From positions 1 to 64,000 of the forward strand of contig JAGTXO010000065.1 of assembly GCA_019448385.1 (NCBI GenBank): a DNA stretch of 64,000 nucleotides. The letters are read 5' to 3'. Shown piece after piece: positions 11,547-33,497 of the stretch (position 1 is its first letter; each line of letters begins with the position of its first letter). The DNA is from Diacronema lutheri (Eukaryota; Haptophyta; Pavlovophyceae; Pavlovales; Pavlovaceae). The notes beneath the pieces are model-generated. The model searched no databases. It was not told the DNA's origin and saw nothing but the letters and a program-made list of their open reading frames with translations. The position numbers and the translations under genes were made by a program.

Positions 11547-11996
11547 CGGGGGGGGGGGGGGGGGGGGGGGAGGGGGGGGGGGGGGGGGGGGGGGCGTTGG
11601 GCCGCCCGCGGAAACGGAGGTGAGCGTGTGGGAGCGGCGCGCGTCGGCGCGCGCGGCTGGCGTGCAGCACGGATAAGTCTTGTGTGGACTTCGCGGGGCG
11701 GATCCCGGTGCAGGGATTGCCGACGTAGGCCGCGAGCGCGAGCAGGGCGGGGATGAAGACGGATGATGGGGTTGGGGCCAAGGCCGCCGCACCCGCAGCT
11801 ATCACGGTGGCAGCGACCGCCACGGTCAGTGCGAGGCTCGCGTGGCCGCTGCGCGGGCAGCTCGCCCGCCAGGTCCAGGAGGGCCGGCCTGCGGCCTCAG
11901 TGCCCAGCGTTGGGCATGTCAGCGTCTGCGTCTGCGGGCCCGCCACTGCGATGGCGCATTGAGCCTGGCGCACCAAAACGCAATCGGTCCGCCGAT

Positions 11997-12036
<40 letters not shown>

Positions 12037-13941
12037 CGAGGCGTGCGCGGGGGCTTGGGGTGGGCTCCGGGTGCCGGCGCTGTGCCAGCGGCGGGCTTGG
12101 TTGACGCCGTCTCGCCGGGGCCCTTGCGCCTTGCGGCGCGAGCGTCGCGGAGGGGCGTCGGCTGCGCTGGCTCCGCGTCGGCGGTGGCGTGGGGCAGGCT
12201 CTTGTGGAGGGCGGAGCGCTCGCGCACGAGTCGGTTGCCAAGGCGGGCTGTCTGCGTGCCGTTGGGCTGCGCTTGGGCAGGTAGGACCTGCGGCCTCGGG
12301 GGCGGGCGGGTTTTCGTGTTGGGCCAGGCGGCAACGCGCACCGGCCGTGTTCGCGGCCGGCAGGCGGACGTCCGCAGCGGGGCGGAGAATGCGGGTGAAG
12401 CGCTTGCACGGGCGCGGTTCGCACCTGGCGGCCAGGCGATCACGAACCGTTGGGTCGCCCGGCTGTTTGGTGGAGCCGAGGGCAGCAAGGATAGCGAGCT
12501 TGGCCGCCTCATCGGTGACGAGCGGCACTGTTGCCCAGCTCTGTACCTCGAAGCCCTGGATGTGCAGGCGTCGGGGAAGTTCCCGGCAGCGTCGCCTGCG
12601 TCCGTCGAGAGGCGGACCGAAGTCGCGCCCGTGCCCCCGTTGGCGACACCGAGCTCTCGCTCGTTCACACCGGCCCGCCGACGCGGGCGCGTGGTGCGCG
12701 CGCGTTGGGTGCGTGTCTGCCTCGAGCAGCGTGCCCAGTCGCAGTGTGGGCGCGTGTCCGTCTGCCTCAAAACGCCACGTGGAGGGGAAGGCGCGGGGCG
12801 GGCTCGCCGAGGAGGTGCCGCCGCTCGCTGCCACCCGGCGCGGGCTCGGGGCAGCCGTCTTCGGGTGCCGCGCTCTTCGCGCCATGCACGAACGTTCCGC
12901 CGCGCTCGCAGCGCGCGAGCGCACACACAGAGCGCGCGGCGACCCCGGCGGGGGCAGTGCGTCCCGGTGGCACTCGCGGGCGCGCGCCTGGCCTGGGCGC
13001 AGCTGGGCGCGTTGCCGCCCGCGCAGCGAGCCGCCCGCGCGCCTCGCCGCGCGCGCGCTTCGTCGCACGCGTGCGCCCTGCATGCACGCGCACAGCGCGC
13101 GGCGGCTCGGCGCAGTGCAAGGCAGAGCGTGCTGCAACGGTTGCGAGGGCGCGCACGCGCGGCGCGGCGCGCCCCTGTGTGGTCGCCTGCGCGCGGCGCG
13201 TGGTCCGGACGCAGCTCGGTGGCGTGATGCCGTTCGTGCAACACAGTGCGCGTGAGAGCCGCACGTGCACACCTGCAGTGCAACGCGGCATTGCGCGCGT
13301 TGCGTGGGCGGAGCGCGGCTGGATGTGCTTGAGGTCGCGCAGCATGCCGCGCGCCGCGCGCTGTGCGGCGCAGCGAGTCGGCCATGCCCCTGGTCCTCGT
13401 CTCCGGGGGGGGGGGGGGGGGGTGGTGGTGGCAACCAGGATCCGCCAGCGCGTGGTGGGCGCCGTCCAACTCCCAGCCAGGATGCGCCCCGTTCTTCCCC
13501 GACACTCTCCGTCCAAACCCGCCGCCCAGCCTGCCGCCGCACCCGCCGCCAACGCCGCCGCGCACCCATCCGCCGAGCTCACCTCGCGCGCGCTCGCGCT
13601 CACGCTGCGCGACGAGGCTGCGCAGGCCGGCGCGCGGCCGTGCAGAGCAGCGCAGGCCGGCGCGCGGCCGCGCGCGCGCGCTCACGTTGCGGCCGCGCAG
13701 CGAGCTTTCGCCGCGTCGCAGCCCCTCCGAGCAGCCACGATGCACGCCCCCGGAGGACGTTGGCCGCGCTCGGAGGCCGCGCTCGGGCGCGCAGAGAGAG
13801 GCGGCGCGGGCAAACGAGTAGGCTCGGCGCGCTGGCGGGTCCTGGTTGTGGGAGAGCGGGGCATTCTCCAGGGCATCATGTAAATTCTCCCAAGTATCAT
13901 CCGGGCCGCCATCCGGACACTGACGTGCCCACAGTCTGCAG
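11547..13941. other. Unassigned region with three poly-G runs (poly-C on the minus strand)
   Basis: Runs of G at 11548-11594, 11998-12036 and 13405-13422 read as poly-C on the minus strand, where each is followed by a possible AG acceptor. Minus-strand frames between them contain coding-like peptides, including two hydrophobic helices (about 11840-11720) and a segment with VPLVTDEAAKLAILAALG (about 12500). A multi-exon minus-strand gene is therefore possible, but I cannot build a reliable model. Competing plus-strand frames are Ala/Arg-rich. Confidence 0.3.
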
Positions 13942-16900
13942 ATGGAGGACTCCGTGAAGGACGCTTTGCCCGGCGGGCGGGGCGGCTCGGACAGTTTCTC
14001 GCTGGCCCTCAGCACCATTCTGTCGCCGGGAGATACCCACCCCCACGTGGTCCCATCCACTTGCCTCATCGCCCTGCTGCGTTACGCGGATTTCGGCACG
14101 AGCAGGGTTAGGGTGGGCGACACGGGGTGCTCGCAGCATGCGCTCAAGGTGGCGCTGCGCAACCTGCGCAAAGCATGCGCGGATGCGGACCGGTTTGGGC
14201 AGGTGCTCGTGGTCGTGCTACCGCTCTGCCTCCGCGCGTCCAGCGGCCTCGTGCACTGGACGGCGGCGTACCTGCTCCTCGCGCCGCCCGCGCAGCGCGG
14301 CGCGCCGCCCGGCGCCGCGCTCGCCCTGCTCGCCGATTCGCGCACCTTGGGCAACGGCGAATCGGCGTACGCCACGGCGGCCGGCGTGCTCATCAAGAAG
14401 CTTGCGCAGCGCATCGGCAGAACAGCGCCGCCCATCGATGCCTTCAAGGCGCCCCCGCAGAGTGGGGCCGCGTGTTGCTTCGCCGCGGCAACAGTCGCGG
14501 CCGAGGTCGTGGCGAGCGCATCGACGCTCTACGGCCGCCGCGCGAGTGTCCTTGTCGACATCAAGAAGGCTTTGGACGCGCGCCTCGCGCGCCTCACGAC
14601 GGCCGCGTACGAGGAGACCCGCGCGCGCACGCTCCGCGCCGCCATCGGCGCTCTGCTCGGCGACCGCGCCAGGCGCTTCGGCCCGTTCACCCGCGAGGCC
14701 GCGCGGCTCGCCGAGGCCGCGCGGCTCGCCGAGGCGTGCGATGCCAGTGTCGGCGGATCCGCGCCCGACGGGCTGCTGCAGGCCGTCGAGGCGGCGCTGC
14801 GCGCGCCCGACGACCGCATCGCACGCACGGCCGCGCTCGACGCGCTCACGGGCGCTGCAGGCCGCGCGCTGTCGACGGCGGCCAGGCCGCGCGGCGCGGC
14901 GGCGCCAAGGCCGCCGTCGCGAGCGCCACCGCCGCGTGCGCCGCAGCGGCGCGCCGCCTCGGCGTGGGGGCCCCGACCATTCAGCAGCCTCGGCGGGGGC
15001 GAGGGCGACGGGGACGATGGCGACGCCACCACCGCTGACGACGGGGAGGGCGCGGAGGACGGGGACGACGACCCCGCGGGCGCGGCGGCTGCGGCGGTGG
15101 CGACGGGCACGGCGGCGACGAGCGCGGTGGCGGCGGGCGCGGCGCCAACCTCGCCGGCGGCGGCGGACGGCGGTGGCTCGGCGCCGCTCGAACGCCGCTG
15201 CGTCTACACTGCGCCTGATGAGGGCGACGCGGACGCGCGCGTGTACGACGCCAAGGACCCCGAGCAGCTAAAAGCGGGCAGGGCGCGGCCACGGGCGAAC
15301 AGCGGGCGCGCGCCCGCCGTGGTCGACACGCTTTTCGCGCACGCGACGGGCACGATCGTCACGCGGCAGCGCACGGAGGGCGTGACCGGCGCGGGCATGC
15401 ACCACCTCGCCGCCCCGACGCAGGGCGCGGGGTACGGTACCGTCGTGCGGGCCGAGCTGGGCGAGCCCGGCTTCGCGGGGACGACATGGCACATGACGTC
15501 GGGCGTGGAGAACCAGCCGCGCGCGGTACGAGCGGCCGCGCGCGCGTACGCGCACGACGGCTGGGGCGGCGTGTACAATGCGCACGAGGACTTTGCCGCC
15601 TTCGAGGGCTTGCCGCGGCTCGCCGCGCCCGAATCGCTCGCGGCCATCGCCGGCGGGTCGGCGGACGCGGTGTTCTGCTGGCGGTCCGGCCGGTCCGTCA
15701 TCGGCGAGGTGACGACGGTTCACTTCAATGGCGACCGCGCCGCCGCCATCGACCACGCGCGGGCGCTGCGCGTCAGGCCCGATTGGCGCTCGCAGCCCAG
15801 GATCTACGAGGCGGCGTGCGGCGCGGAGGGCACGGTGCTGCTCGTGTGGGTCGTGCCCGACCGTCACAAGAACCCGCGGCTGGACTGGGCGCCGATTCTC
15901 GTCGTGATCCACCTGCCCGCCGACCCCGACTGGCTCGCGCGCGCCACGCCGGCGATCGCGAAGGCGCGGCGCGAGGTCGAGGACGGACGCGCGCGCGCGG
16001 AGGCGCGCGGCGTGCCGCAGCACCTCGCCTACACGCTGAGCCCACGCTTCCGAGGCACCGCGCCGCGCGGAGCCGCGCGCGTGCCGCCGCGCCTCGGCGC
16101 GAGCGACGCGCGCGAGGCGCGCGCGCTCGCGGCGCTCGAGCCGGCGCTCATGTTCGCGCCGGCCTGGCGGCGCGCGGTGCGCGCGGCGAGCCGCGCCCCC
16201 GGCAGTGGCGCCGCGGCCGTCGAGCGCGCGCTCGCGCGCCTGCACAACGCGCTCGAGCCCGATGACGAGAGCGCGCCCGAGTCGACGCGCGTCGCGCCGC
16301 TCGCCGCCGCGCTCGAGCAGTCGGCGGGCTGGCCGGCGGGCACGGCGCGCATGGCGGCAAGCGTGACCAAGGGCCCCGGCGTCGGAGATGGCGCAGGTGG
16401 CGACGAAGTGACCAAAGTGGAGGAAACGGCGAAGACGAGCGGCGACGGCTGCACCGGCACGCCTCCTCTGCGCCCGGCCGCGCGCGCGGCCGGCGCGGCG
16501 GACGACGGAGGGGCGGCGGTCGTGGCGGGCGTCGAGGGCGAGCGCGACGCACTCGCCAAGACGGGTGCCGGCGGCTGCGACGACGACGCTCGCGAGCCGC
16601 TGTCGGCCGGCAAGCCCGGCGCACTCGCCGCCGCGGCGACCGTCGGGGGTCTCGGCGAGCTCGTCGGCAGCCTATGCGCGTGGCTGGCGCGCGGCGCGGC
16701 TGGCGGCGCCATCGCGGCCACCTCCCCCGGGACGGCCGCGCGCGGAGCAAACGGCACGCCGCAGCGCGCCGAGCCGCCGGCCGCCGGCGATCCCGTCGCT
16801 CCGCACGCGCGCGTCGCCGCTGCGGCGCCCTTGGCGGGCAGCGCGGCGGCGCCGTCGTCGGCCGCGCGCGACGCGCAGCGCGGCGTCGCGGGAGTCGACG

Positions 16901-19900
16901 CGGCCGCGCACGCGCACGCGCGCGACGGCAGGCGGGCGGCACGGCGGATGCGCGAGCAGGAGGGGGCGGTGCACAGGGCCTTCCGCATGTCCCTCTGGCG
17001 CGACGCGACGTTTGTCGAGTTCGTTGAGAAGCTGCGCCCCGACGGCGGCGCGCAGCTGCTCGCGCGCGAGCCCACGCGGCGCGCGGCGGCGGTGCTGTGC
17101 GAGCTCGCGCGCGGCCGCGACGGCGCGAGCGGCGCGGCCGGGCTGCTGCACGAGATGAGAGCCGCCGATGCGCGCGCGCGCGAGGCCGCCAAAGCGGCGG
17201 AGGCAGCGCAGCTTGCGCACGGGACGCTGCGCATCGTGGCAACCGTGGCGCTGGGCGGTGCGGTCTTCGCCGGCATGTCAGCGCTGGTCGTTGCTTGCGC
17301 GGCGCGCACGGCGACCGGTGCGCTTTTTGGGGCCCGCCGCCCGCGGGCGGCCGCGCGCGGAGCCGACGACGCGCTCGGCACGCTGCAGCGCGCCGAGCCG
17401 CCGCCCGCCGACAAGGGCAAGCGCAGGCGCGCCAGAGCCAACGACGACCCCGTCGACGCGGCGCGCAAGGCCGTGGGCAAGGCGGAGGGCAACTGCCGCA
17501 AGGCAGCCCGCCGGCTGCACCTCGCTGCACTGGGCGAGGAGGAGGCGCAGCAGCGCGTGCTCGACGCCGAGGCGGCGGAGCAGCTGGCGCGCTCGCGCGA
17601 GCCGGCCGGCGGCTGGGTAGGCAGCGCGCGCGCGCGCGCGCGCGCGCGCCCCGCCGCGCGCGCGCCCGTCGATTGGCGTGCGCGCAGCGCAGAACGGCGC
17701 GCCAGCTCCGTCACCTGCGCGCCGCCGCGCCCGTGCCCCTCGCGCGCAGGGGCGCCCTGCGGACCTGCGGCTGCAACAGGCGCACTTTGGCATGCGCGAA
17801 GATGCCGACGCGGAAGTGCGCCGCGCGCACGAGGCGCTGCGCCGGGCGAGACAGGGTGTGGCGTGCGCCAAGGCCAGCGTGCGGCAGATGGAGGCGGCGT
17901 TGCTCAACGCGACGCGCTGCGCCACCGCGGTGCTCGCGCCGCGTGGCGTGCCGGAGGGTGACGAGCAGGCCGCGGCGAGAGAGCAGGCGGCGCTGGACCG
18001 GGAGGCGCCGCCGGCCGCGCAACGCGCGGCGCCGACGGCGCGCTCGCCCTCGGAGCCGCCGTCCGAGTGGGGCCCGCCAGCGGTCGGCCGGCGCCCGACG
18101 CCGCGTGCACTGTCGCACGCCGCGGGGCGCGGGGACGACAACCCGTTTGCGCCGCTCGCAACCGTCAGCGGCGATTGGTCGCCCACGCCGAGCTCGCGCC
18201 CGCCGTCCTCGCCGCCGCGGCAGCCGCCGTCCGACCGCCGCAGCGCGCAGCGTCGCAGCGCGCGCGCGCGGCCGCCGAGGCCGACCGTTTCGCCCGAGGA
18301 CGCGCTCGCAGCCGAGCGCCAGGCGCGCGCGCTGTCGGAGCAGGCGGAGCGGAGGCGCGCCAAAAAGGCCGCCGCCAAGGCCGCGCGCCGCGCCGCGCGC
18401 GCCGCCGACAAGCGGACGGCGCGCGTCGTCCACGCGTGCGTAAGCGCCGCCTTGCGGCGCGTCTGCACGAGCGTCGCCACGGGCACGCCGCTCGCCGTGC
18501 TCCGCGAGCGCGCCGAGGGGCCGCGCGCGCCGAAGGCGGCGCCCGCGCCGCCACGCCGCGCAGCGGACGGCGGCCGCGCGCTCCGCCACGCGCGCCGTGC
18601 GGCCGCCGCGGCGGCGGAGCGCGAGGCGGCGGTGGCGGCCGACGCCGACGAGCGGTTCGAGCGGCAGCCCTCCGCCGCCCGGTTCGACGGCGGCGATGGC
18701 GGCGGAGGCGGCCACGTCGAGGCGAGCGCGCGACCGCGCGCCGGCGAGGCCGGCGAGGCTGGCGCGCACGGCGCGCCTGGCGCAGCGGGGACCCCGGCGG
18801 CGTCGCTCGCGTCGCGCAGCCCGTGTGATGCGCGCCGCACGGCACGCCTCCCGCACGCACGCGCCGCAGCCACCTGCGCACGCAACGGCGGCTGGGGTGG
18901 CAACGTCGGCGGCGACGTGTGCGGCGATTGTTTCGGCGGCGGCGGCGTCCGTCGCGACGCCTGCGGCGGCGGCGACGCCACCTGCGGCTGCGGCGATGGC
19001 GGCGTCGGTGCTGGCGCTGGCGAGGCCCCTGCACACGGTGCGCCGGCGCGCGCGACGGCGTCGCGCTTGCTGCGCTTGCTCGGCGCGCCACGCGCCGTGC
19101 TCGGTGCGATGGCGCACGCCGCGGCCGTGTTGGCGCGCGGCGTGGCCGCAGCCGTCGCTGGCGTGCGCGCCGCCGCGCGCGCCGTGCGGCGCGCGCGCCG
19201 CCGAGCGCCTCGCGCGCGCCGCACGGCTGCGCGGCGGGCTCGCGGCCCGCCGATGCGCGACGTCGACGGCGCCCTGCGGCCCTCGCCGTCCTGGTTGCGC
19301 ACACGCCTCGTCTGCGGCCGGCGCCTCGCGCCTCTGCGCCGCGCGGGCGCGCGCCCGCCGCCCGCACACGCCGCGCCGAGTTCCCGCGCGCGCGCTGCGC
19401 AACCCGACAGCGACGCGCCGGCGTGCGCGCCGCGGCGCTCGGCGCCTGTCGGTGCGCCGCCGCGCGCGCGTGGCCTGCGCGCGGCGCGCGCACGGCGCTT
19501 CCCCGACGTCGCCGGCCGCGCGGCGCGGAGCGCGCGCCTCGGCGCGCGCATCACGCGCCAGCGCACGCCGGGTTCGCCATCGGAGCCCTGCACGGCCGAG
19601 AGCGGCGACGGCGCGGGCGCCGGCGGCGTCGGCGCGGCGGCGCCTGGCGCGGCGACGATGCGCGCCACCGGCGCGCGCGCAGCGCGCGCTGCGGCGGCGG
19701 CGGTCGGTGGCGCCTCGCGTCTCGCGCGCCGCGCGATGGCAAGCGCCGCCGCCGCTGCCACCTCCGTCGCCGGCGCTGCCGCCTCGACCGTCGCCGCCGC
19801 CGCCGTTGCCATCGGCGCGGCCGTCACGTCACCGGCGTTCGCCGCGGCGCGCGGCATGGCGGCCGCATGCGTCGCTGCCTGCGCCCGCCCCACCGCCGCG

Positions 19901-22197
19901 CAGGCGGCCGCGTCGCGCGCGCTCGGCGCGCTCTTCGTGCTCGTCGACGCGGCCGACGCGGCGGGCGACAGCGACGCCGCGCTCGGCGCGCTCGCGGCCG
20001 CGGTCGACGCGACGGAGCTGCGCCCGCCGCCGGCCTTTTGGCGCGCGGGCCGCGCCGCGGCGTACGCACCGCGTCCGCCGCCCCTCGACTCGGCGCGGCC
20101 GCGCTACAACCGGCGCGCGCGCGCACCTAGCCCTCCCGTCGCGGCCGCGCGGCGCAATCTCGCGCGCGCGGTGCGCGAGCTCACGCGCGCCGCGCGCGCT
20201 GAGCGCGAGCGCGCGCCGGCGCCGCGCGGCGCGCGCGGCGGCGTGCTCCACGCGCTGCGCGCGTCGCTCCCCGTGCACGCGCGTGCCGCGCTCGGCACGG
20301 ACGCGGAGCTGCGCGCGGACATCGCCGCGTTCGCGCGCGCGCGCCGCGAGCTGCACAGCCTCACCGACGCCGAGGTGGCGGCGCTCGCGCGCCCGGACGG
20401 GCCGCCGCTGCCCGTGCGGCTCGCGTGCACGGCGGTCGCGCGCGCGCGCGGCGTGACCGTGCTGCTCGACATCGTGCCGCGCGGCGGCGGCGCGCCCGAG
20501 CGGCTCGTGTGCCGCGCCCGTCGCCGCGGCGCCGCCACGCGCACGCCACGGCCGACAGCCGCCGTTATCGCGCGCGCGCCTTGCATAGCGGCGCGCGTTG
20601 GCCACACTGAGCCGGCGCGCGCGTGCGCGGGCGGATCGATCGGGGTCGCGCGCCTCCGTTCAGCGCGCCGCCGCTCTTGGCGTGGGGCGCGGCTCGACGT
20701 GCACACCCGCGAGCGGCTGGCCACACCGGTGCCAGGCCACGTCGTGGCCTGCGCCGCCGCCTCGGCCATCGGCGCGTGCGTCGCTCGCGCGCGGCTTGGG
20801 CTTGCACGGCTGGCGCGCGCGTGGCCCTGCGCCTCCGCTCCACTGGCCACTGCTGCTGTCGCCTTCGCGCCTGCCGCCGACGGTGTTTTCTGCGCCCCGC
20901 TGGGCGCTCCTGCATCCGCCTTCGCGCCTGCCGCCGACGGTGTTTTCCCCGCCGCACTAGCCGCTGCTGCATCCGCCTTCGCGCCTGCCGCCGATTTTCC
21001 CGCCCCACTAGTTGCTCCTGCACTCGCCTCCGCGCCAGCCACCGACGGCGTTTTCCCCGCCCCGCTAGCCGCTGCCGCTGTCGCGTCCGCGCCTGCCGCC
21101 GCGGGCGTGTCCTCCGCCCCACCAGCCATCGCCGCCGCGCCCGCCGCCAACGTGCGCACCGCCAACGTGCCCGTTGCCAACGAGGCTACCGCCACCGAAC
21201 CAGCCGCCCTTGAGCTTCCCCTCCAACCCGCCAACTCGGCGCTGCTTGCGTGGGCGGGCGACGCGGCTGCGCGCCGGCTGGCCTCCGCCGCCGCGAGCGC
21301 CGGCCTCCCGCAGGCAGAGGTGGAGCGCATCGCCAGCGGCGACATGCTCGCCTCAACCGTCGACGCGTGCTGCGAGGTCGTGCTACGCGTGCACGGGCAG
21401 GCCGGCGGCGGGCATGTCTGCCACGTGCCGCTCGCCGCGCAACCCGCGGTGTTCCAGGACGGCGCCGAGCGCGCCGCGCTGCTGCACCGCCTGCGCAGCG
21501 AGGCGACGACGCAGGCTGTCATCGGCGTGTGGAGCCCGTCGGACGAGCGCGGCGGCGCGGGCGGTGACGACGGCGCGCAGCTCGCCTCCGGCCATTTCAC
21601 CGCGTTGCGCCTTGTGCGCGTCGCGCGCGCGGGCGAGCGTCGCTACGACGCGGTGCTCGTCGACACGCTCGCGTCGCCCTGCAGGCGGGCGCTCGTGCTC
21701 GCCACGGCGATAACTGCCACGCTGCACGCGGCGGGTCTCGACATTTCGCGCGTGCGCCGCGCGCGGCTGCTCGACGAGGCGGCGCAGCGTGGCGCGACGT
21801 GCGGCCTCGCGATAGTGGGCGCGCTCAACGACGCGCTCGCCGCGGCGGGCTGCTCGTCCGCGCCGCGCACGTTCAGCGTGGCGGACATGTACGCTGTCGG
21901 CGAGCGCCTCCGCGTCGCGCTGACCGGCGCGGCCAGCGATCGTGCGCCGGGCGGCGTCTGCGCGGGCACGAGCGCGGTGCGTGGCGGGGGCAGCCCCGAT
22001 CGCGCCGAAGCGCCGCCGCAGACGCGCGTCGCCAAGGCCGCCGCTGGCGTCACCGCCGCCGCCACCGCCGCCGCCACGCCGCCGCCGCCCGCGCTGGGCG
22101 CCGCCGCCGCCGCCACCGCCGCCGCCGCCGCTGCTGCCGCCGCCGTGGCCGCGCCGTCACCGCCGCCACCGCCGCCGCCGGCCGGCGACGCGGGCGA

Positions 22198-22284
<87 letters not shown>

Positions 22285-25200
22285 GCGCACGTTCTTGAGG
22301 CTCGCGCCCAGGGCGCGCGCGGCCGCCTCGGCGCGTGAGGCGTTGCGCGCCGCGTGTGCGCGCGCGGACGCGGCGGCGTCGTCACACGCGTCGGCGCCGC
22401 ACGCGCCCGCCGGTGCGCGCCGCCGGCGGCGCGCGGGCGCAGGCGAGCTGGCGCTCGCGGCTGCGCGCGCGCTCGCCTCGACGGAGCACGGCGATTTGAC
22501 GGACGACGCGCTCGAGGCCGCCATCGAGCAGGAGCTGGGCGACGAGCGCGGCCAACTGCTGCTGTGCACGCGGGGCGCAGCGGCGCAAAGGCCCGCGCTT
22601 TGCCGGCTCCTGAAGCACGCGTGCGCGTCGGCGCGCGCGGCGAAGCGCGCGCAATTCACGGTGTTCGTCGTGCGCGCGCCCACGCGCGGCGAGCGGGGGG
22701 GCGCCGCCGCGACGCGCGTGGACTCGGTGGTCGAGCTGTCGTGCGCGCTGCACGAGAAGGCGGGCGCGCTCGGCGGCCTCCAGAGCGTCTGTGTGCGTGG
22801 CTTTGCCCTCGAGCGCCGCCGGACACTCGACGGTGGCGCCGAGGCCGGCGCGTCCGCCATCGGCCAGGACGAGCAGGTCGAGGCAGAGGCGGGCGAGGCG
22901 TGCGTCGCCGGCGTGACGATGGCCAAGCAGCTGCGTCAGTTTGCCGAGCAAGCTGCCCGCGACGACGTGCTCTTCCGCGTCGCCGTGTCCGAGGCCGACG
23001 CCCACGCCCGGCTGGCGCGCGTTGCGGGTGACGATGTCGGCGCGTACAGCGTCGTGCTCGCAGTCGCCGGGCTCGTCTGGCTGGCCAAGGCCGACGAGGT
23101 TGCGCCGGCGGCCGCCCAGTCCGCCGCCGCGCCGCCCGCCGCCCCGCCTGCTGCCGCCACGTCCGCCGACGCCGAGCGCGACGCCTCGCCTTCCGACCGC
23201 CTGCGCGCGCTGACGCTCGCCGTGCGAGTCGCGCTCGCGCGCGGCGTGCTGCGCCACCTCCTCGCCGACGCGTCGCCGGGCGCGTCCGCGACCGCTGGCG
23301 GTAGTTGCGCGACGCCCGTCGAGGCGGCCGCGTCCGACGCCGCGCCGCCCGCCACGGGCGTCGTGACGAGTGGCGTCGCGGCGGGCGCTGTGGCGGCCGC
23401 ACCGGCTGCTGCGGGCGGTGCGACGGCGGGTGCATCGCCCATCGCGCGGCCGGCGAAGCGCGCGCGGCGCACGCTCACCGCCGCTCCAGCCGCCTCGGCC
23501 GTTGCGGCCGCTGGAGGCGCACGCGCTGGCGCACGCGGCGCGGCCGGCGCGCCTCGCGCGCGCGCCGCGCGCGCGCCGGCCGAGTACGTCTGGCTTGCCA
23601 TCGCGCGCCGGATGCTGGCGGCGCGACACGCGGCGGCCGCGGGCGGCGACTTTGTCGCGTCGTGCGTCGCCGCGATGCAGGCCGAGTACGGCGACGGCTG
23701 TGCCGTCGTCGTCGGCGACGCGCCTGGTGACGCCTTGGTCGAGGCTGCGGCGGCGGCGCTGCTCGAGGGCAAGCACGCGGCGGTGAGCCTCGGCTGCGTC
23801 GACCGGCCGGCGGTGCTCGTCGTGCAGCGCGCCGTGGATGCGCCCACGTCGCGCGTGCACGGGTGGTGCGCGCACGCGGCGGGCGCCGCCGAGTTTGACG
23901 AGGGCGCCGCGCGCGACGTGTTCAACGCGATCGTCGAGCGCGCGTGGGCGCTGCGTCCGGACCCGGCCGACGGCAGCCCGCCGCCCACGCGCACGTGGGA
24001 GGTCGGGCGCATCGCTGGCGACGCGCCCGACCAGGCGGGCGTGGCCGCGCTGCGCGTGCTCTACGCGCTCGTCGCGGCGCACGGCCGCTACCGCTCGGCC
24101 GCCGCGCTCTTTGGCGCGCTCGCGCAGCTGCACGCGCCCGACGCCGCCGGCGCGCGCGCGGAGGTCGTCGCGGCGGCGTGCGCGGTGCCGCCCGGCGCGC
24201 GGCCGGGCGCCGCGCCGGCGGCCGCGCGGGACGACGCGAGGGAGCGCGCATGGGAGGGCGCTCAGATCGCCGCGCTCGCCGTCGGCGCGGACGCTGCGCG
24301 CAGGCGTGTCGCGCCCGTGCGCGCGCTCGTCGACGCGCTCGGCACGCCACCGACCTCGGCGATCACGGGCGGGCCGGCGGTCCGGCTCGCGGGCGCGGGC
24401 GACGGCGGCCACGGTGTACGGTGGGTGGGCGAGCAGGCGGCGACGCCCGCCGAGCAGCTGCCGAGGGAGCTGCTGCGCGCCTACCACGAGGCGGTGCTGT
24501 GCGTCACGCCCGGCAGCCTCCAGCTCGGCCCGGCGGCGCTCGACGCGGTCACGCGGCCGCGCGAAAACGACACGCTGGAAGGCCTCCTCGCGCGCGTCAG
24601 CTGGCAGTGCGGCGCGAGGGCGAGCACGTGCGCCATGCTCGCCACGTTTTCCGAGCAGGCGGGCACCGGCTCGCGCGTCGCGCTCAAGGCCCTCCGCACG
24701 AGCTCCGACCTGGCCGGGCTGACGGCGGCTGCGGTCGGGCAGCAGGCGCCGCAGACGCCGCCGCCGCCGCTGCTCGTAATGCTCGGCCGCTGCCCCAGCC
24801 CGCTCGTCGGCGGCGGCCTCTTCCCGCCCGACCGCGCGACGGGCGAGCCGGCGGTGCACGCGGCGACGTCCGAGCTCGCCGTCGAGCTGCTGCGCGACGC
24901 GCGCGCGCTGGCCGGCACGGACGGGCGGCTCGTCGTGCTGTGCCTCGAGGCGTCCAACCCGCTCTGGTTCTGTCCCAAGGTGCGCGAGCTCGAGCTGCCG
25001 CGGACGCGGTCGGACGGCGTGCGCGCGTCCGGCTGCACCTGCCCTGCGACGTGCAGCGATGCGCGCGGCGCGGCGGGTGGCGCTGCCCGCGGCGCATCGA
25101 CGCGGCCGGCGGCGCGCGCGATCAACAAGGCGGTGCTCGACCACTTCGTCGCGCTTTTCGGCCGCGAGGGCTTCGCGACCTTTGAGTTTGCGGGCGGCGG

Positions 25201-28200
25201 CGAGGCGAGCTGGCTGTGCGACAGCGCGGCCGGCACGACGACCGTCGCGGCGTGCGCGTCGCTGCCGCCGCGCATGGGCGATGGGCAGCTGGCCATCCGG
25301 CGGCACACGCTCGGCACGGGCGCCGACGCGCCGGCGCACGCCGTCGTCTCGCTCCGCGTCGCGCACGTGAGCCACGCCATCCGCCGCGCGGCGGACGACG
25401 GCGGCGCGCGCGCCGAGCGGATGGCGCGCGCCGCGCGCGCGTTCTGCGATGTGGCGGCCGCGCTGCGCGTCGACGCGATCCTGGCGGAGGTGCCCGAGGA
25501 CCGCCCGACGGGCACGCCCTTCCTTGGCGGGCTGCTCAAATTTTGGGACAAACGCAACGGGAGCTGGACGGCGCCAGCCACGCTCGCGCTCGGAGACGTG
25601 CGCGAGGTGGCCAAGCGGACGGCCGACGCAGCGGCCGGCCGAGCGGACGAGGTCCCTGCGGCTGGCCGTCCGCAGGTCGCGGCGCGCGCGTGCGCTGGCG
25701 CGATTGGCGGCGGCGCGGGCGCGGCGGGCGCCTCGGACGCTGCGCCCCGTGCACTGGCGGGCGCGTCGGGTGCGCGCACGGACGGCGGCCCTGCCGACGC
25801 ACCGCGCCAGCTGGAGAGCCGCTACGGCGAGGCGAGCAAGCTCGACCTACCCCAACATTCCACTACGGGCTGCGTCCTCGACGCTCGCGAGGCCCAGGAC
25901 CGCGCGCGCGTGCCTGCTGCGCCCGACGGCACAGCGCTGCGCCGCGTGCTCGACGCCGTCGGCGCGGGCGCGCCCGCGCAGCGCAGCCCGCGCTGGCACG
26001 ACGAGCGATGGGAGGAGGTCACGGGCAGCAAGGTTGGCGACGTCGTGAACGACAACGCCGGCGTCGCGCACGAGACGCTCACCGACGAGTACGTGCACCG
26101 GCGGCGGCGCGAGGTGCGGACCAAGGCGACGACCGCGGGCATCCTCGGCGAGGCCGTCGCGCTGCGCAAGCTGGCGGCCGCGTACGGCATCACCGTCGTG
26201 TGCAACCTGCCGATGGTGCGTGCGGACCCGCACGACAAGAGCGCGCCGTTCGCCTTCTCGCCGGACGGGCTCGCCATCCTCCCCGAAAACAACGAGCAGG
26301 TCCTCGTCGAGGTGAAGACGCTCACCAAGGCGGGCGCCACGGCGCACGAGGACGGGCCGCCGCAGCCGCACCGCGATCAGCTGCAGCTCGGCATGCACGT
26401 CCTCGGCGTGAGCAAAGCGCTCTACGTGCAGTACCTCAGGCACGAGGACCGGATCGTCGTGCACGTCGTGACGCGCGGCGCCGGCTGGCTTGCATTCGCG
26501 CAGCCGAGGGTGCAGGCCTTCTGGGCGCGCGTCGTCGAGCGGCGCGCGCGGCTCGAGCGCGCGCGCGCCGACCACCCGGCTGCGAGCCGGCGGCACCGGC
26601 GGCAGCAGACGCCGGCCGGGCCGCCGCTCGTGCTCGCGCTGGACGGGCGCATCCCCGCCGCGCGCGCCGCCGCGCTGCACGCCGTCGCGCACGGCACCGC
26701 GAGCGCGGCGGCGGTGACGGCGGCGGCGGCGACGGGCGACGCGACGGCGTTGCAAGACGCGATCGCGGCGCTGCGCGCGCCCGTCGGCAATGCGGCGATC
26801 GACAGCGCAGCGCGTGCGGAGGGCGCGGCCGTCGAGCGGGCGATCGCGTACCTCGGGCAGCCGGCGGGCGACGCCGCCGCCCGCGGCACGGCCGAGGCGG
26901 CCGAGGAGGAGAGGACGGTCGACGCCGACATCTGCGCGTTGCTGCACCAGCTCGGCGCGAGCGTGGCGCACGTGCACGTCGAGGACGCGGATTGCGTCAC
27001 GCGTGAGCACTGGGGCGAGGCGGTGCTCGCTGCAGCGGACGACCCGTCGAGCGCCCCCGCCATTTCGAGCGTCATCGTCGCGCACATCGTGCGCCTCGCC
27101 GGCTTTGGCGTCGAGCTCCCGCAGTCGATTCGCGTCGCCCCCAGCACGGCCGACTGGCACGAGGGCTGGCTCGACGTGCAGTGCGTGCTGCTGCGCACGC
27201 GCCGGCGCGGGCGGCGCGACGACGACTTTGTGGCCGTCGTCAGGCGCGGTGGGCGCTGGTTTGCGTGCGAGCCCGGCCGCGCGCGGCGGCTGCAGTGGCG
27301 GTCGGTCCTACGCCGCGCGCGCGGCGGCGTCGACGGGACCGGCGAGGAGGCGTTCGCGATCGTCTACGTGCGGCGCGGCGACGCGGCCGGCGACGCGGCT
27401 GGCGACGCGCAGGCCGCACGGGCGCGCGGCGGGCGCGCGCGCAGGCGCACGCGCGGCGGCACGCGCAAGCGCAAGCGCGGCGCCTCCGCCGGGCTCGAGG
27501 CGGCCGCGCCCGCCGGCGCGCCGGCTGCCGCGCCCGCCGGCGCGCCGGCGGGCGCTGCTCACCGCCCGCCCGCCATGCGCGCCACGGTCGCCGCGCGCAC
27601 CACGCGCTCTGTGACCGACGCGCTGCACTCGGCGCCTGCCGCCACGGTTGCACCTGTCTTCGACTGGCGCGCCGGCCGCCCGCCCCCCGCCGCTCGAGCC
27701 CGCCACCCGCGGCCGCGTGGGCGCGCGCCACCGGGCAAGGCCTGGGACAGCGTCTCGGGTGCGTGGGCGGACAAGCCGACTGGTGCTGCCGTCGCCGCCG
27801 CGCCGCCGCCGCTGCCGCCCGCCGCCGCGCCGCCGCCCACCGCCGCGCCGCCGCCCGCCGCCGCGCCGCCGCCCGCCGTCGCGCCGCCGCCCGCCGCCGC
27901 GCCGCCGCCGCCGCCGCCACCGGCGGCGCTCGGCCGCCGGCAGCACGTCGGCGCGGGCGGCAGCGCGGCGGGCCGGCGGCTCGCGGCCATCGCACGGCGG
28001 CAGCGCGGCGTGCGCGCGCCGCCGCCCGCCGCGCGCTTCCTCGCCACGCTGCCGCCACCGCCACGCGACGGCCTCGCGCGCACGAGCAAGCAGGCGCGCG
28101 CGAGGCGCAACGCGGACGGACGGCCGGCGCACGCGCGCGCGGCCAACGCGCGCGCCTTCTACCGCGGCGTGGAGCTCGGCGTGCACGCGACGCGCGCCAT

Positions 28201-31200
28201 CGTCGACGCGCGCCACGCCGACCTGCCGCAGGCCGTCTTCGTGGCGGAGGCGCGGGCGATCGTCGCGCGCTCCGCCGGCGGCGGCGCGCTGCTCGCGCCG
28301 GACGACGTGCGCGACCTGTGCGACGCGCAGACGGACGCCGATCGCGCTGCGATCTGGGCGTCGGTGGGCGCGCACGAGGCGACACGCATCTTCGCGCTCG
28401 TCACGCGCAACGCGAGCTTGGCGGGCGCGGCGCTGCTCGTGCTGCACACGCCGGCGGGCGCGCCGGCGCGCGCGCTCGGGCTCCTGGCGACGCGCTCGCG
28501 CGCGCCGTCGACGGGCGCGCCGCGCGACGCGCACAGGGCGCTGGTGCAGCGGTTGGACGTGCTGATGGACGCGATCGCCGCGGCGCGAGGCGCGTCGCCG
28601 CTCGAGCTCGAGCTCGCGCTCGCGCCCGAGCCGCAGAGCGCGTGCAACGCGCGTGCGGCCGCGCTGCTCTGCCTGCAGGCCGTCGCGGACGCGAGCGGCC
28701 GTCCCGCCGCTGAGGACGCGCTGGCCGCGCTCGACGACGCGCGCGGCATCGACCGGCACTGCCACGCCGTCCGGCAGCAGATCGAGGCGAAGCTCGCGTG
28801 GCGGCGCGCCGACGGCGCCGTCGGCGTTGACGGCGCCGACGGCGCGCCCGCGCTCGCGCCTGCCGCCGCACCGCCGGCGTGCGCGCCGGCGCACGCTGCC
28901 GGCGAGGCGGCGGTCGACCAGGCGATCGTCACGCGGGTGCGCGACGCGCTGCGCGCGTGGGCGACGACTGGCACCGCGCCCAGCGCGGCGGTGCTCGACG
29001 ACGCCTGCGCCGCGTACACGGCCCGCGCACGCGCGCGCAAGGACGCGCGCACGGCGCTGGGCCCGACGCGCGCGGCCGAGCTGCTCGCCGCGGCCGCGCG
29101 CGGCGGAGCCGACGGGGCGGATGCCGCGCGCGCGCTGCTCGGCGGCACGCCGCGCCTGCTCGTCGTGCTCCTCTGCGTGCCCGTCGCCGCGCCGTCCGGC
29201 GAGCCGCCGCGCCCGGTCGGGCTGCTCGTCGCCGACCGGCCGACGGACGACTCGCGCCCGGCCGCGCTCGTGCGCTACGACTTTGCGCCGCTCGACGCGG
29301 ACGTGGCCGTCGCGGTCGGCGCGCATGCCGTCGCGCTGGCCAGTGCGATCTGGCCGCTGCTCGCGGCCGAGGGGGAGCCGCGGCCATCGCCCGTCGTGCG
29401 CTCGCAGCCGCGCGGCGGCGACGATGGCGCGCGTGCGCTCGCAACGTTCGCGTGCCTCGACGCGCTGATGACCGCCAGCGTCGGCGCGCACGGCCTCGCG
29501 GGCGGCGCGGGCATGCTGCCCGCGCTGGTCGCGCGAGGCGCCGCGGCCGCCCAGCGCGAGCGGCAGCTGCGCGCGGCCGCCGAGAGGCTGGGCGGCACGG
29601 TCGCTGGGTGGCCGGACACGGGCGCGAGCGCGGCGGGCGCGAGCGTCGACGAGGAGGCGCGCACGTACGAGGTCGAGGCGGTCGTCGACGAGCGCCGCAA
29701 GGCGGGCAAGAAGGTGACGTTCCAGTTCCGGATCAGGTGGCGGGGCTACGACGAGAGCGCCGACACGTGGGAGCCTGAGGCCAACGTGAGCAGCGACCTC
29801 GTCGCCCAGTTCCGCAAGACGCGCGACGAGCAGAAGCGGCGCGCGGGCGTATCGGGCAGCGGCAGCGGCGGCGCGGGCGCGGCGTCGGCATTGGCGTCGG
29901 CGCCGCTTCGCGCGCACGGCGAGTCGGGCGCCGCGGGCAAGCGCGCCGCGGCGGGTGCCGCCGCGAGCGCGCGCGACGCCGCGGGCGCGCGCGCGCCGAG
30001 CGTTCCCCGCGCGCGCGGCGTCGAGCGCGCGCGCGTGGACGAGCCCGCTGCGCCGAGCGCGCGCGCCGCCGGCGGCGCGACGGCGCGCACGCGCGGCAGC
30101 GTGCTCCCGGGCTTCGTGGTCAAGCGCTCGACGCTCAACGCGGGGCCGCAGGCGGTGACGGCGCAGCCCGGTGCGCGGAAGGAGCTGCGGCGCATCGCGG
30201 CGGCCGTGCACAGGCTCACGACACAGGCGTACCGCGTCATCAACAAGGTGGTGCGCGACGAGGCTGCGGTGGCGAGCGCGCAGGCCGTCGGCGCGGCGTC
30301 GGGCGGCCCGTCGACCAGCGTGCACACGTCGACCACGATGGACAAGGGAACCGTCCGTGCGATCTTCTCGGCCATCGGCTGGCACAAGGACGAGAGCACG
30401 TACGGTGCAGCGCCCCGAGGCAAGCCCGCCGAGCAAGCCGCCGCGCAGACCAAGGCGGCGACGGCGCGCGCCGTCGGCGAGATGGCCGAGGGCGTCCAGC
30501 CCGTCTGCGCGGTGGGCCTCACGGAGATCCTCGAGGCGGAGGCGACGCAGGTGTCCACCGCGTGCCTGATGCATCCATCGCGCGTCGTGAACGGGCTGCT
30601 CCGCGACGTCGTCCGCGCGGCAGTCGAGCGCGACGAGGCGCTCGTCGCGCTGCCCGAGATGCAGCGAAACGCGCGCGTGCGCGAGCTGTGCGAGCGGCTG
30701 CTGCGCGGCGACGTGGAGGGCGCGCGCGTCGGCTGCCCCGCCGCGCTCGACCGCCACCTGCCCGACATGGTCCTCCACAAGATCGACTACAAGTGCACGC
30801 CCACGAAAAGGTGGAACTACGACCGGCACACGACGCGCTACTTCCTCGTGCAGATCCGCACCCTGCAGCACGTGGCCGAGGGGCAGGCGCTGCTCTGCCG
30901 GCTCGCGCACATCCACACGCAGCTGACCGGACGGCCGCCGCGGTACAATGTGGCGCCGCTGCGCACGCACAATGTGCGCGCGAGGCGTGGCTGCCGCTGC
31001 CGCCGCCGAGCGCCCAAGCGCGCGCGCCGCCGCCGTGCGCGCCGCCCCGCGGCCAGGTTGGTCACGCGCCCGCGCGCTCGCGCGCCGCGCGCTGCGCGCA
31101 GGTGCCGCGCAACGTGCGCCTCGCCGCGAGCGCCATCTGGGTGACGCTTTCGGATGACGAGCGCAAGGAGCTGCGCGCGCGGCTCAAGGCGCTGGACCTG

Positions 31201-32826
31201 CGCGACCACGATGGCGAGCCGATCAAGTGGACAGGCACAAACGGCAACACCCCGCCGATGTCGGACGTGCGCGTCAGGTACGCGGTCTTTGCGACGCGCT
31301 TCGACATCTCCAACCGCGTCTTCGACTACGCCGGGCGCGAGCGGCCGCCGGCCGATCTGCCGTGGCACGCGCGGCGCTCGTGGGTTGGCCTCGCGCCGCT
31401 GCCGCGCGTGCCGCTCCCGGGCCGGCAGCCCGTCAAGTCGGTGGTGACAGATGGCGTCGCCGTGCACGCCGTCGGGACCGTCCTCGTGCCGAAGGCGCAG
31501 GCGCCGGCCGGCGGCTCGGGCGTCCTGCACCGCTGGCGCCGGCCGGACGGGCGCATCGCCGTCGCGCTCGGCTCCGAGCTGCGGCGGGCGATCGACGTCG
31601 AGGCGGCGGTCGTCGTCGCGGCCGACCCGAACATGGGCAACATCACCACCTACTCTGCGCACGTCGGGCGGGCGGCCGTCTGGCGGCAGTTCACGCAGCG
31701 CGCGCGCGCGCGCGCCGCGGGCTTTGCGCGCGAGACGGCCAAGACCAACGCGGCGCGGCGGCGCGTGCGCAAGGACGGGCGCGGCGAGGAGTTCAGCGTG
31801 GAGGCGGACGAGGCGCGGCTTGGCGAGGCGCACAGCGCCAAGGTGCTCGGCGAGGGCGAGTTCCACGCCTTCCACCGCGAGAGCGCGCGGGTGCGCGAGC
31901 GCGCCGCCGAGCACGTGTACGACGCGCCGGCGCGCCGGAAGGAGCGCTGGCGGCGCGACAGCGGCGGGCGGTCCAACGCGGCGCGCGTCGCCGAGGCGCT
32001 CATCGCGGCGCACTGTGTCGACGGCGTGACGCGCGACCGGCTGCTCGTGTGCGTGGGCAAGTGGCTGCGCGACCACAAGGGCGCGCAGCCCAAGGGCGCG
32101 CCGCCCGCCTTCCAGGTGGGGCTGCTGCGCGAGCTGCGGCGGCGCGGCGTCGCGGCCGTCTTCGTGCCCGAGCCGTACACGTCGATGCACTGCTCGATGC
32201 CGCGGCTCGCCAAGGGCGGCAGGCTGCAGCGCTGCGGCGCGGAGCTCGCGCAGAACCCGCGCCTGCCCGTGGCAAAGGGCGGCACGCGCACGGTGCACGC
32301 GCTCGTCATCTGCCCGGCGTGCAACGGCGGCAAGAAGCCCGTGCACCGCGACTACAACGCCGCGCGCAACATCTTCTACGACGTGCACGACATGGCGGCG
32401 CACGCGGCCGGGCGCGACACCACGTCGACGCCTGAGCGCTTTGCCCTCGTGCTCGCCTGGTGGGCGCGCGGCGAGGTGTGGGAGCGTGAGGAGCGCATGG
32501 TGCACGGCGAGGGCGACGACTGCGACGACGAGTGCGACGGCGACGACGAGGGCGACGACGAGGGCGACGACGACGACGACGACGATGGCAGCGGCGACGG
32601 CGGCGGCGGCGAGGGCGACGGCGACGGCGACGGCGACGGAGGCGGCGGCGGCGACGACGACGATGACGGCGGGGGAGGCGGCGGCGGCGACGGCGGTGGC
32701 GACGACGGCGGCGGGCGCGGCGGCGGTGGCGGCGGCGGCTCTCGCGCCCGCACCCCCGCCCGCGGAGCTGCCAGCGCCAGTGCCGGCGGCGGCAGCGCGC
32801 GCGGGCCGAAGCGCGGCCGGCGTTGA
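13942..32826 (+). CDS. Giant multidomain mobile-element protein: Ulp1-like proteases, YqaJ exonuclease, chromodomain, Fanzor nuclease
   Basis: Three exons (13942-17616, 17750-30973, 31102-32826) joined by phase-0 introns of 133 and 128 bases give about 6,207 residues. In order: a Ulp1/C48-like protease (residues about 40-190); an unrecognised region and a hydrophobic helix (about 1105); a coiled-coil-like stretch across the first intron; a long Ala/Arg-rich region; a second Ulp1-like domain (about 2400-2600); a poly-Ala tract of about 28; unknown globular segments; a YqaJ-like exonuclease (about 3968-4136); decayed protease-like units; a chromodomain (about 5197-5252); and a Fanzor nuclease ending in an acidic Asp/Gly tail and a basic PKRGRR, a likely nuclear signal. 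The ATG at 13942 is the first in frame, but upstream exons cannot be excluded. The ORF is uninterrupted over 13 kb, which argues for recent function. It could be several proteins if the introns are misread. Confidence 0.7.
14224..14540 (+). other. Ulp1-like (C48) cysteine protease domain 1
   Basis: Within the giant gene. A hydrophobic strand (GQVLVVVLPL) leads into the catalytic-type LVHW (His at residue 105). Next comes ALALLADSR (Asp 132) and PPQSGAACC (Gln 173, Cys 178 or 179). This is the His-Asp-Gln-Cys order and spacing of SUMO/Ulp1 proteases, a family captured by several DNA transposon groups. Confidence 0.6.
17617..17749 (+). other. Phase-0 intron 1 of the giant gene
   Basis: gtaggc donor at 17617 and gcgcag acceptor ending at 17749. 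Its removal joins a helical stretch (QQRVLDAEAAEQLARSREPA) to another (GRPADLRLQQAHFG) and moves from one long open frame to the next. Confidence 0.6.
21240..21880 (+). other. Ulp1-like (C48) cysteine protease domain 2
   Basis: Within the giant gene. It shows SGHFTALRLV (His, codon at 21593), DAVLVDTLASP (Asp, 21662) and AQRGATCGLAIVGALN (Gln 21785, Cys 21800). All four catalytic-type residues are present with normal spacing, and the QxxxTCG form is close to canonical, so this copy looks active. Confidence 0.65.
22199..22283 (+). repeat. GCC trinucleotide run encoding about 28 Ala
   Basis: Uninterrupted GCC repeat inside exon 2 of the giant gene, preceded by shorter GCC and CCG runs. It is expected to vary in length between strains. 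Confidence 0.8.
25978..26480 (+). other. YqaJ/lambda-exonuclease-like domain
   Basis: Within the giant gene. SPRWHDERWEEVTGSKVGD is the usual opening with the substrate-binding W and the TGS motif. It is followed by GILGEAVALRKLA, the catalytic PD-(D/E)XK core FSPDGLAI...VLVEVKTL, and HRDQLQLGMHVLG, the conserved glutamine helix. The family comprises alkaline 5'-3' exonucleases of viral recombination systems and some transposons. All key residues (D of SPDG, E and K of EVK) are intact. Confidence 0.75.
28150..29480 (+). other. Two decayed protease-like units
   Basis: Within the giant gene. The unit at about 28390-28710 ends EPQSACNARAAALLCLQAV, matching the Gln/Cys region of protease domain 1, but the His and Asp positions are gone. 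The next (about 29155-29480) keeps a VVLLCVPV strand, a VGLLVADRP strand and a SQPRGGDDGARALATFACL helix where the Cys is replaced. They read as tandem C48-fold copies that have lost catalysis. This rests on pattern similarity by eye. Confidence 0.35.
29660..29832 (+). other. Chromodomain
   Basis: Within the giant gene. YEVEAVVDERRKAGKKVTFQ begins a textbook chromodomain, followed by FRIRWRGYDESADTWEPEAN and a C-terminal helix. The aromatic cage positions (Y, W, W/Y) are kept. Chromodomains on integrases and transposases direct insertion to modified histones, so a targeting role is inferred. Confidence 0.85.
30110..32826 (+). other. Fanzor (eukaryotic TnpB-like) nuclease region
   Basis: C-terminal part of the giant protein. 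RuvC-I is VVVAADPNMGNI (Asp codon at 31624, residue about 5808). The middle segment is VCVGKW..HKGAQPKG...GLLRELRRRGVAAVF, followed by PEPYTSMHC, whose Glu (32170, residue about 5990) lies where Fanzors carry an alternative RuvC-II acid beside the TS..C motif. A zinc-ribbon half CPAC (32311-32322) leads straight into RuvC-III HRDYNAARNIF (Asp at 32350, residue about 6050). The first half of the ribbon is unusual: C-SMP with a later QRCG rather than CxxC. Fanzors are RNA-guided DNA nucleases related to TnpB/Cas12 and are known on diverse eukaryotic transposons. Confidence 0.8.
30974..31101 (+). other. Phase-0 intron 2 of the giant gene
   Basis: gtgcgc donor at 30974 and gcgcag acceptor ending at 31101, 128 bases. 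Joining YNVAPLRTHN to VPRNVRLAAS restores one continuous nuclease-containing frame. The long ORF runs a further 170 bases in the wrong frame before stopping. Confidence 0.65.
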
Positions 32827-33497
32827 CGCACGGCCGAGCCGCGCAGCGGTCGACGCTTTGCGGGCTCTGCCCAGGTCGCGCGCGGCTGGCGACGCGTGCC
32901 GCGCGCGGCACGACCGTGCACGCCGCCACCCGTGGCCGAGCGCGCCGCACCAGCCGGCCCGCTCCAACCGCCGTGCGGATCACGGACGCTCGCTACGGCT
33001 CGTCGGCGCGCGTCACCTGCGCCGGCGGCCACGGCGCCGTCTGCTCCGGCCTCGTCGCGAGCAGCCCGACCGCTGCTCGCCGCCCGCACGCCGCCGCAGC
33101 AACGCTGCGCGTCGTGCTCCCCCGCTCGCCAAACGCGAAGAGCTCCCTCACAAGGACGTCCTTCCGAACGGCCCGCGCTGCACTCGGGGCGCGATCGTGC
33201 CCCTGATCGGATTTGGCTTGACCATCTATACTATAGTAGACCCATGCAAGTTTTACTGCTCCGCCGGCTTGCTCGCTCGCGGCTGCGCTGCTCTGTCGAC
33301 CTGGATGCGCAGGGATCGAAGGTCTGCCCACTCTGGCGACGTTGGTGGCAACTCGATCATGCGCAGCTGCGTGCTGACCCCGCTGTCCTGACGTAACTTC
33401 GCAAGCACCTTCGACCCGTGCAAGTTTTTAAAAGGGGTGTGCACCTTTCGCGTCGGATTAATGGCCGCCCTAAGCGCGATGCGAGCGCGCTCCACGA
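32827..33497. other. Non-coding stretch after the Fanzor ORF
   Basis: No convincing gene. It begins GC-rich and becomes AT-richer at 33215-33260, with the palindrome TACTATAGTA at 33229-33238. The string TGCAAGTTTT occurs at about 33244 and again at about 33418. In TnpB/Fanzor loci the guide RNA lies at or beyond the nuclease 3' end and reaches the element boundary, so this is where it would be sought. No RNA fold was computed. Confidence 0.3.

Follow-up and report, generated by a model that had tools for sequence, protein, structure and literature searches.

The 64,000-nucleotide stretch analysed here (positions 1–64,000 of contig JAGTXO010000065.1, Diacronema lutheri assembly GCA_019448385.1; hereafter the window) carries one copy of a repeated DNA element of about 31 kb. 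A preliminary description had placed a mobile-element polyprotein of about 6,200 residues at 13942–32826, combining Ulp1-like proteases, a YqaJ exonuclease, a chromodomain and a Fanzor nuclease. We examined this proposal in the window and across a genome totalling 43,492,796 bases (103 contigs). The existence of a mobile element is strongly supported, with 195 exact left ends and 194 exact right ends genome-wide. Its limits, however, had been drawn too narrowly: the repeated unit is 2193–33231, so 11.7 kb of element lie to the left of the region first described. The earlier reader had also missed that the element carries a Pif1 helicase and a ubiquitin-hydrolase-like segment, and that no transposase can be recognised in it. 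The element and its parts are as follows.

2193..33231, +, whole mobile element, ~31.04 kb, with boundaries shared among copies
2193..2213, +, left terminus, [C/G/T]TATATA[C/G]GGCGCGG...
5630..8100 (right limit approximate), +, Pif1-type helicase gene split over several frames (exons); its amino-terminal ~280 amino acids (aa) are unassigned
9763..10554, +, ubiquitin carboxyl-terminal hydrolase-like segment (PF00443, E 4.3e-8, over the cut-off)
13942..17616, +, exon 1, 1225 codons, from frame and codon periodicity; Ulp1-like motif H..D..Q..C near 14.25–14.46 kb, then a region of unknown fold
17617..17779, +, putative intron 1, GT-AG, 163 bp, phase 0
17780..30973, +, exon 2, 4398 codons, from frame, codon periodicity and length against simulations
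21270..21900, +, second Ulp1-like segment, motif read by eye; the unit common to the sampled 21.6-kb copy begins here
25970..26545, +, YqaJ / lambda-exonuclease / RecE-like domain (phrog_434, 6.3e-15; TIGR03033, 2.9e-7)
29666..29818, +, chromodomain (PF00385, 6.7e-12)
30974..31101, +, putative intron 2, GT-AG, 128 bp, phase 0
31102..32826, +, exon 3, 574 codons plus stop, coding for the Fanzor RuvC/TNB region and a low-complexity acidic tail
32827..33231, +, non-coding right end downstream of the Fanzor stop codon; by position, the expected place of a Fanzor guide-RNA scaffold
33210..33231, +, right terminus, GATTTGGCTTGACCATCTATAC

Reading frames and predicted domains

The three long open frames first described at 13942–32826 are present (13924–17961, 17621–31144 and 29779–32826 from stop to stop), and joining them across the two short phase-0 introns restores a frame of 6,197 codons. 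Both third-codon-position GC and a codon-usage score track the joined frame over most of 14.0–32.6 kb and change phase at each junction, which supports the frames; two further AG acceptors for intron 1 likewise keep the frame. Because long frames are cheap in a stretch of roughly 80% GC, we regard codon periodicity as better coding evidence than frame length. In 200 first-order Markov simulations with the same composition, the longest frame had a mean length of 881 aa and a maximum of 1872 aa. The middle frame, at 4507 aa, is far beyond chance, while the lengths of the 1,339-aa and 1,015-aa frames are by themselves within it; antisense frames of 1,291 and 1,154 aa are also present. The coding signal is weak at ~18.6–19.6 kb, at ~20.4–21.3 kb and in low-complexity stretches, and the first two of these leave room for further introns or a gene boundary.

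The Fanzor assignment is supported by a Cas12f1-like_TNB match (PF07282, E 4e-6) just above the cut-off, together with signature residues and homology to a second family of Fanzors in this genome. The signature given in part of the account by Bao and Jurka (PMC3627910) is D-X(125-275)-[TS][TS]-X-X-[C4 zinc finger]-X-RD. The Fanzor exon fits it at D175, a spacing of 184, TSMHC and RD416-417; its zinc finger is atypical. The predicted active site, D175-x-N177, E357 and D417, has the D-x-N / E / D pattern of SpuFz1, for which D383, N385, E541 and D606 are given in the portion consulted of PMC10432273. These residues were placed relative to the motifs, with the D, E and D aligned to the second family and the match to SpuFz1 made by pattern. 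Homology to the second family (L148; TNB 8.1e-10) was detected with tblastn at 2e-9, with 25.6% identity over 315 residues. Sequence searches of the PDB returned no Fanzor, the best related row being Cas12f1 at E 0.2. Fanzor pieces occur in at least 92 places scored of 419 candidates, and 91 of these 92 lack a stop. The L148 locus itself (C9:378300-381300) encodes a canonical, CxxC-bearing Fanzor within an open stretch of 888 aa that has no chromodomain or YqaJ match. In a separate set of 150 scored places, 31 have TNB scores of 31.8–44.5 bits, compared with 31.3 for the window copy.

The chromodomain match lies over the Pfam cut-off. The exonuclease is likewise supported, by the RecE-like profile, despite a Pfam YqaJ score in the window copy of 15 bits, under the cut-off of 22; the lambda-exonuclease family TIGR03033 also scores under its model's cut-off. 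Among 150 places scored genome-wide, one (contig C71) passes the Pfam YqaJ cut-off. The 221-aa YqaJ piece recurs in at least 150 places (150 scored of 239 candidates), none with a stop. 

A phage collection yielded a single match (E 0.06 over 47 residues). Single-sequence structure predictions reached pLDDT values of 36 and 42, with no Foldseek match under 0.001, and were not used.

The Ulp1-like proteases fared less well. The order H..D..Q..C was read by eye in two segments, and profile comparison of the segments stayed at shuffle noise. We found no Pfam family in the exon-1 frame, only Chromo and YqaJ in the exon-2 frame, and no NCBIfam match for 13942–16098 or 21227–23500. We treat the proteases as a lead only, because the motifs were read by eye without profile support; a role in deSUMOylation or self-processing would be suggested by these motifs only. 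A candidate series of five or six tandem Ulp1-like domains in exon 2 was dropped, since hhalign comparisons were at shuffle noise and the sole high-scoring pair consisted of overlapping segments. The exon-1 piece 14020–15120 was 100% identical in all 111 places scored of 194 candidates.

Our Pfam scan covered the three main frames and 30 further frames (29 in the window and one in another copy, L144) at E up to 1, with smaller frames outside it. The Pif1 assignment is based on PF05970 matches at 1.9e-15 and 1.8e-24 and a Pif1 2B domain at 6.2e-13; genome-wide, 150 of 414 candidates were scored and about 120 of these had the same score as the window copy, 89.7 bits. An SSB-like amino terminus of the Pif1 protein was considered and is not claimed. 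No transposase, Rep, DDE, integrase or recombinase family was found in the scanned frames; tyrosine, serine and DDE families were not searched genome-wide. Near the left end, the minus strand of 2900–4050 has coding-like patches with no family match. The ~3.3 kb of element at 10.6–13.9 kb show little coding signal and contain poly-G and poly-C tracts of 31–47 bases. A 12.65-kb derivative (C28:58928-71581) has its Pif1 and YqaJ matches separated by ~220 bp, each of them listed with an open frame of 2,282 aa.

Boundaries, copies and insertion sites

Comparison of the ends of further copies gave a left boundary near 2193 and a right boundary at 33231. The exact left end occurs in 195 places (103 + 92) and the exact right end in 194 (105 + 89), with none for a reversed-pattern control. 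Among 30 Fanzor loci (L002-L031, including the window), the 27 others that pass the right end all diverge within 0–2 bases of 33231; in L004 and L006 the contig ends just before it. The left end was first bracketed at 2.1–2.5 kb by sampling one copy upstream, and the boundary near 2193 was then seen in 8 of 18 copies fetched at the full-length position. The other 10 lack it there; four of them belong to shorter classes with left ends elsewhere, leaving six. The scored Fanzor, YqaJ and exon-1 pieces are 98–100% identical, and therefore the spread was recent.

For 100 listed left ends we sought the closest of 90 typed right ends lying on the same strand and no more than 45 kb away, and 56 found a partner. 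The paired lengths fall into recurring classes of 31.0 kb (30.5–31.1 kb, 24 copies), 21.6 kb (21.4–22.4, 13), 26 kb (26.0–26.9, 7) and 29.2 kb (29.1–29.4, 7), with rarer lengths of 12.7 kb (1) and 32.2–37.8 kb (4). These 56 copies sum to 1.57 Mb, or 3.6% of the genome. Extrapolating a mean of 28 kb to 195 ends gives ~5.4 Mb, near 12% of the genome, a figure in which 44 of the 100 listed left ends stand unpaired.

The ends carry CTATA in direct orientation. A search for a terminal inverted repeat was negative: no inverted copy of the right end's last 17 bases turned up elsewhere in the window with up to 3 mismatches allowed, and the 25 longest of 915 inverted pairs in the window are all internal. 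An inverted match of ~5 bases at the extreme ends could still be present. Each end has palindromes nearby, the left one, found by eye, being perfect over 18 bp. Terminal folds were not clearly better than shuffles; on the left, 12 of 200 shuffles of 80 nt and 8 of 200 of 150 nt folded as well, and on the right 47 and 25 of 200. An inverted internal repeat at 4192–5075 is rearranged or deleted in other size classes.

Both flanks were read for 21 insertions (that of the window and 20 others), and none had an exact target-site duplication. Shared bases numbered 0 in 19 and 1 and 2 in the other two, against a mean of 0.36 for mismatched pairs, and the sites had no core sequence in common. The nearest 20 bases have a GC content of 47–58% on the left (n=21) and 56–57% on the right (n=38), compared with 72% at 300–700 bp on the right; in the nearest 10 bases it is 47% and 57%, respectively. 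Where the preliminary description envisaged histone-directed targeting, the insertion sites show a local AT-rich preference. Most flanks bear no relation to one another; a few have another repeat in common, and one such repeat lies near the junction in L098, L122, L091 and L015 and at 33337–33396 in the window.

We compared size classes through one copy each, examined by pieces. In the 21.6-kb copy (L144; C27:146428-168022), ~2.4 kb of unrelated sequence takes the place of exon 1 and the early part of exon 2, with the open frame running on through it. Homology resumes at window position 21222 with 611 ungapped bp containing 65 substitutions (18, 17 and 30 at the three codon positions). Identity is 89% just past 21222 and 98.5–100% from 22.4 kb on in nine sampled pieces. 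This copy keeps the carboxy-terminal unit of second Ulp1-like segment, YqaJ, chromodomain and Fanzor, while in a 26-kb copy (C34) homology starts at 16347, beside an ATG. In these samples, the amino-terminal modules swap while the carboxy-terminal unit stays together. The presence of Fanzor, exonuclease and chromodomain in one frame is supported. Between size classes, the right 11 kb (22.4–33.2 kb) are 98.5–100% identical in the pieces sampled, compared with 92–99% in the left part (4.2–10.9 kb), as if the right part had later spread or been homogenised.

The 21.6-kb and 26-kb copies, which replace or lack amino-terminal modules, and the frame-shifting indels of several copies speak against one fixed polyprotein. 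We consider a single ~6,200-residue protein possible but unproven. A serious alternative, even if we lean away from it, is that two or more neighbouring genes lie here, for example exon 1 with early exon 2 followed by a separate gene from ~21.2 kb, with no protein of 6,200 residues. The fading of the coding signal in the two stretches noted above would fit such a boundary, as would the retention of the part from 21222 onward beside an unrelated upstream part in the 21.6-kb copy and the start of homology at 16347 in the 26-kb copy. Against separate genes, the 4507 codons without a stop exceed all 200 simulations, a tandem repeat at 20.8–21.1 kb has a period of 57 bp (19 codons), and the unrelated upstream part of the 21.6-kb copy continues in the same open frame.

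Contigs that begin exactly at an element end (C1:1, C12:1, C32:2) indicate that the family limits the assembly. Targeting of telomeres was considered for the many copies a few hundred bases from contig ends and was rejected; because some contigs start exactly at an element end, such copies fit assembly breaks at the repeat. The window has CCCTAA/CCCTCA-like telomeric repeats at the contig start (1–322) and at an interstitial position (40330–40648). Outside the element it contains host-like genes at 47653–50547 (histidine kinase), 51001–55206 (class V aminotransferase with PP-loop ATPase), 56487–57974 (VID27-like) and 60255–62276 (HROB-like).

How the element may move

The element is most likely a giant DNA transposon with recent activity and a transposase of unassigned class. 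The fuller reading that we favour, to which we give a probability of about 0.45, is of a giant, recently active DNA transposon family of ~195 copies in which Fanzor uses a right-end guide and copying is recombinational. TnpB is placed last before the right end in insertion sequences. In our proposal, the element would move in DNA form, through a pathway that produces no staggered cut. Fanzor, whose coding region is the last one ahead of the right end, would take as guide an RNA running from the right end into the flank and would cut the matching unoccupied site, so that a copy is retained or re-copied there by recombination. The lambda-type exonuclease would resect ends and Pif1 would drive the copying synthesis; these two enzymes probably serve recombination or copying. 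The chromodomain may tether the protein to chromatin, the protease-like modules may process or deconjugate proteins, and the large stretches of the polyprotein that have no assignment may hold a strand-transfer enzyme.

A number of results weigh against this reading. The Fanzor and guide proposal is drawn from DNA sequence, with no transcript, protein or guide RNA seen. RNA of the right end folds no more strongly than shuffles (z -0.8 to -1.35) and has no Rfam match, and no conserved motif beside the left end would fit a Fanzor target-adjacent motif. In the Fanzor zinc finger, the first Cys pair departs from the usual form, with C-S-M-P where the second family has CxxC. The Pif1 gene is partly missing in the sampled 21.6-kb and 29.2-kb copies, and the helicase remnant in the former has no third-position excess. 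Substitution counts by codon position are flat for exon 2 across 30 copies (66, 71, 62), for L001 (15, 13, 16) and for L145 (5, 8, 3), the only third-position excess being that of the 611-bp stretch in L144. In some copies, indels of 1, 4 and 29 bp shift the frame. The variation thus shows little selection. A selection test on the Fanzor loci was left unused; it is biased, as the loci were chosen for identical protein. At the insertion sites, the longest string common to the flanks within 20 bases averaged 4.1 in true pairs and 3.7 in mismatched pairs, with one string of 7 and one of 6, and a loose or displaced duplication is not wholly excluded. The absence of duplications could also stem from near-identical copies mis-joined in the assembly.

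For the insertion step, the leading rival is a rolling-circle element (Helitron or Helitron2-like) whose Rep has diverged too far to be recognised, with Fanzor and the rest as captured cargo. A Pif1-type helicase is part of RepHel in Helitron2 and Helentron, and one is present here, along with AT-rich sites that lack duplications and the 18-bp palindrome near the left end. This rival leads because Fanzor1 and hairpins at both ends are known in Helitron2: part of PMC3627910 describes Fanzor1 in Chlamydomonas Helitron2 elements with hairpins at both ends, the complete ones inserting without duplication. We nevertheless think it rather unlikely. No Rep (HUH) was found in the scanned frames, the sole HUH-like string found sits in a frame without coding signal, and Helitron_like_N matches a single place in the whole genome (C63:35738-36019). 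The ends are not TC...CTRR and the sites are not A|T (rules given in part in PMC3627910), nor do the terminal folds clearly surpass shuffles. An unrecognised tyrosine or serine recombinase, as in Crypton- or IS607-like elements, would accord with the direct CTATA at both ends and with the occurrence of Fanzors alongside Crypton and IS607 enzymes, reported in the part consulted of PMC10711439. Given that the sites share no core sequence and that the scanned frames contain no recombinase family at E up to 1 (the families were not searched genome-wide), we judge this improbable.

Pif1, YqaJ, Fanzor and Ulp1-like proteases all occur in large DNA viruses of algae, and the gene set could accordingly suggest a degraded or endogenous virus. 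Capsid, packaging ATPase and polymerase families were not found in the scanned frames, no relatives turned up in scans, sensitive to close relatives only, of 2.9 million viral contigs, and the sharp ends and recurring size classes fit a transposon; a viral origin is the least probable of these explanations. Hardly more probable, in our estimation, is a new transposon class without a dedicated transposase, in which Fanzor would make the breaks, the lambda-type exonuclease prepare the ends, Pif1 copy the 31 kb and the giant chromodomain protein serve as scaffold.

Relation to known elements

The Fanzor described here resembles Fanzor1 of eukaryotic transposons (Bao and Jurka 2013; Saito et al. 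2023) in its TNB domain, signature spacing, active-site pattern and the position of its gene adjoining the right end. Unlike Fanzor1, it is joined, through one open frame and one intron, to a chromodomain and an exonuclease in a predicted product of thousands of residues; its carrier measures 31 kb and its first zinc-finger pair is atypical. With Helitron2 and Helentron the element shares a Pif1-type helicase, the lack of target-site duplication and a Fanzor, known there as a passenger. It differs from them in that no Rep was found, in its ends, in its 31-kb size and in its exonuclease, chromodomain and protease-like modules.

Starships, Polintons and Teratorn are giant transposons or polinton-like or giant virus elements, and polymerase B, integrase and capsid are hallmarks of Polintons and polinton-like viruses. 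The element is like these in size, multi-gene content and virus-like repertoire and unlike them in having no tyrosine recombinase, integrase, polymerase or capsid family in the scanned frames. ISL2EU (PHIS) also encodes a YqaJ exonuclease protein; the consulted part of PMC4482050 describes these elements, from animals only, as averaging 4.8 kb, with a DDE transposase, inverted repeats and AT duplications. Here, by contrast, we found no DDE family in the scanned frames, no AT duplication in 21 pairs and no inverted recurrence in the window of the right-end 17 bases.

Fanzor in transposons and YqaJ beside transposases (the latter in ISL2EU, according to the same part of PMC4482050) were thus each already known. 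We found no account of the combination of Fanzor, YqaJ exonuclease, chromodomain and Pif1, nor any of YqaJ together with Ulp1, in the literature searched, which left subscription papers mostly outside and did not extend to Repbase. The portion consulted of the D. lutheri genome paper (PMC8379373) makes no mention of the element family.

The host is an alga cultured for aquaculture, and if the extrapolated 5.4 Mb is true, the family makes up ~12% of its genome. Movement without target-site duplication or a recognisable transposase implies a mechanism still to be found. Why eukaryotic transposons carry Fanzors is an open question, for which this family offers ~195 nearly identical, precisely bounded copies with Fanzor coded together with an exonuclease and a chromodomain and sharing the element with Pif1. 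The right flank of every copy would give a guide prediction specific to that copy, which makes the idea of retention or homing testable. Fanzor-driven insertion, if true, would represent a new kind of element.

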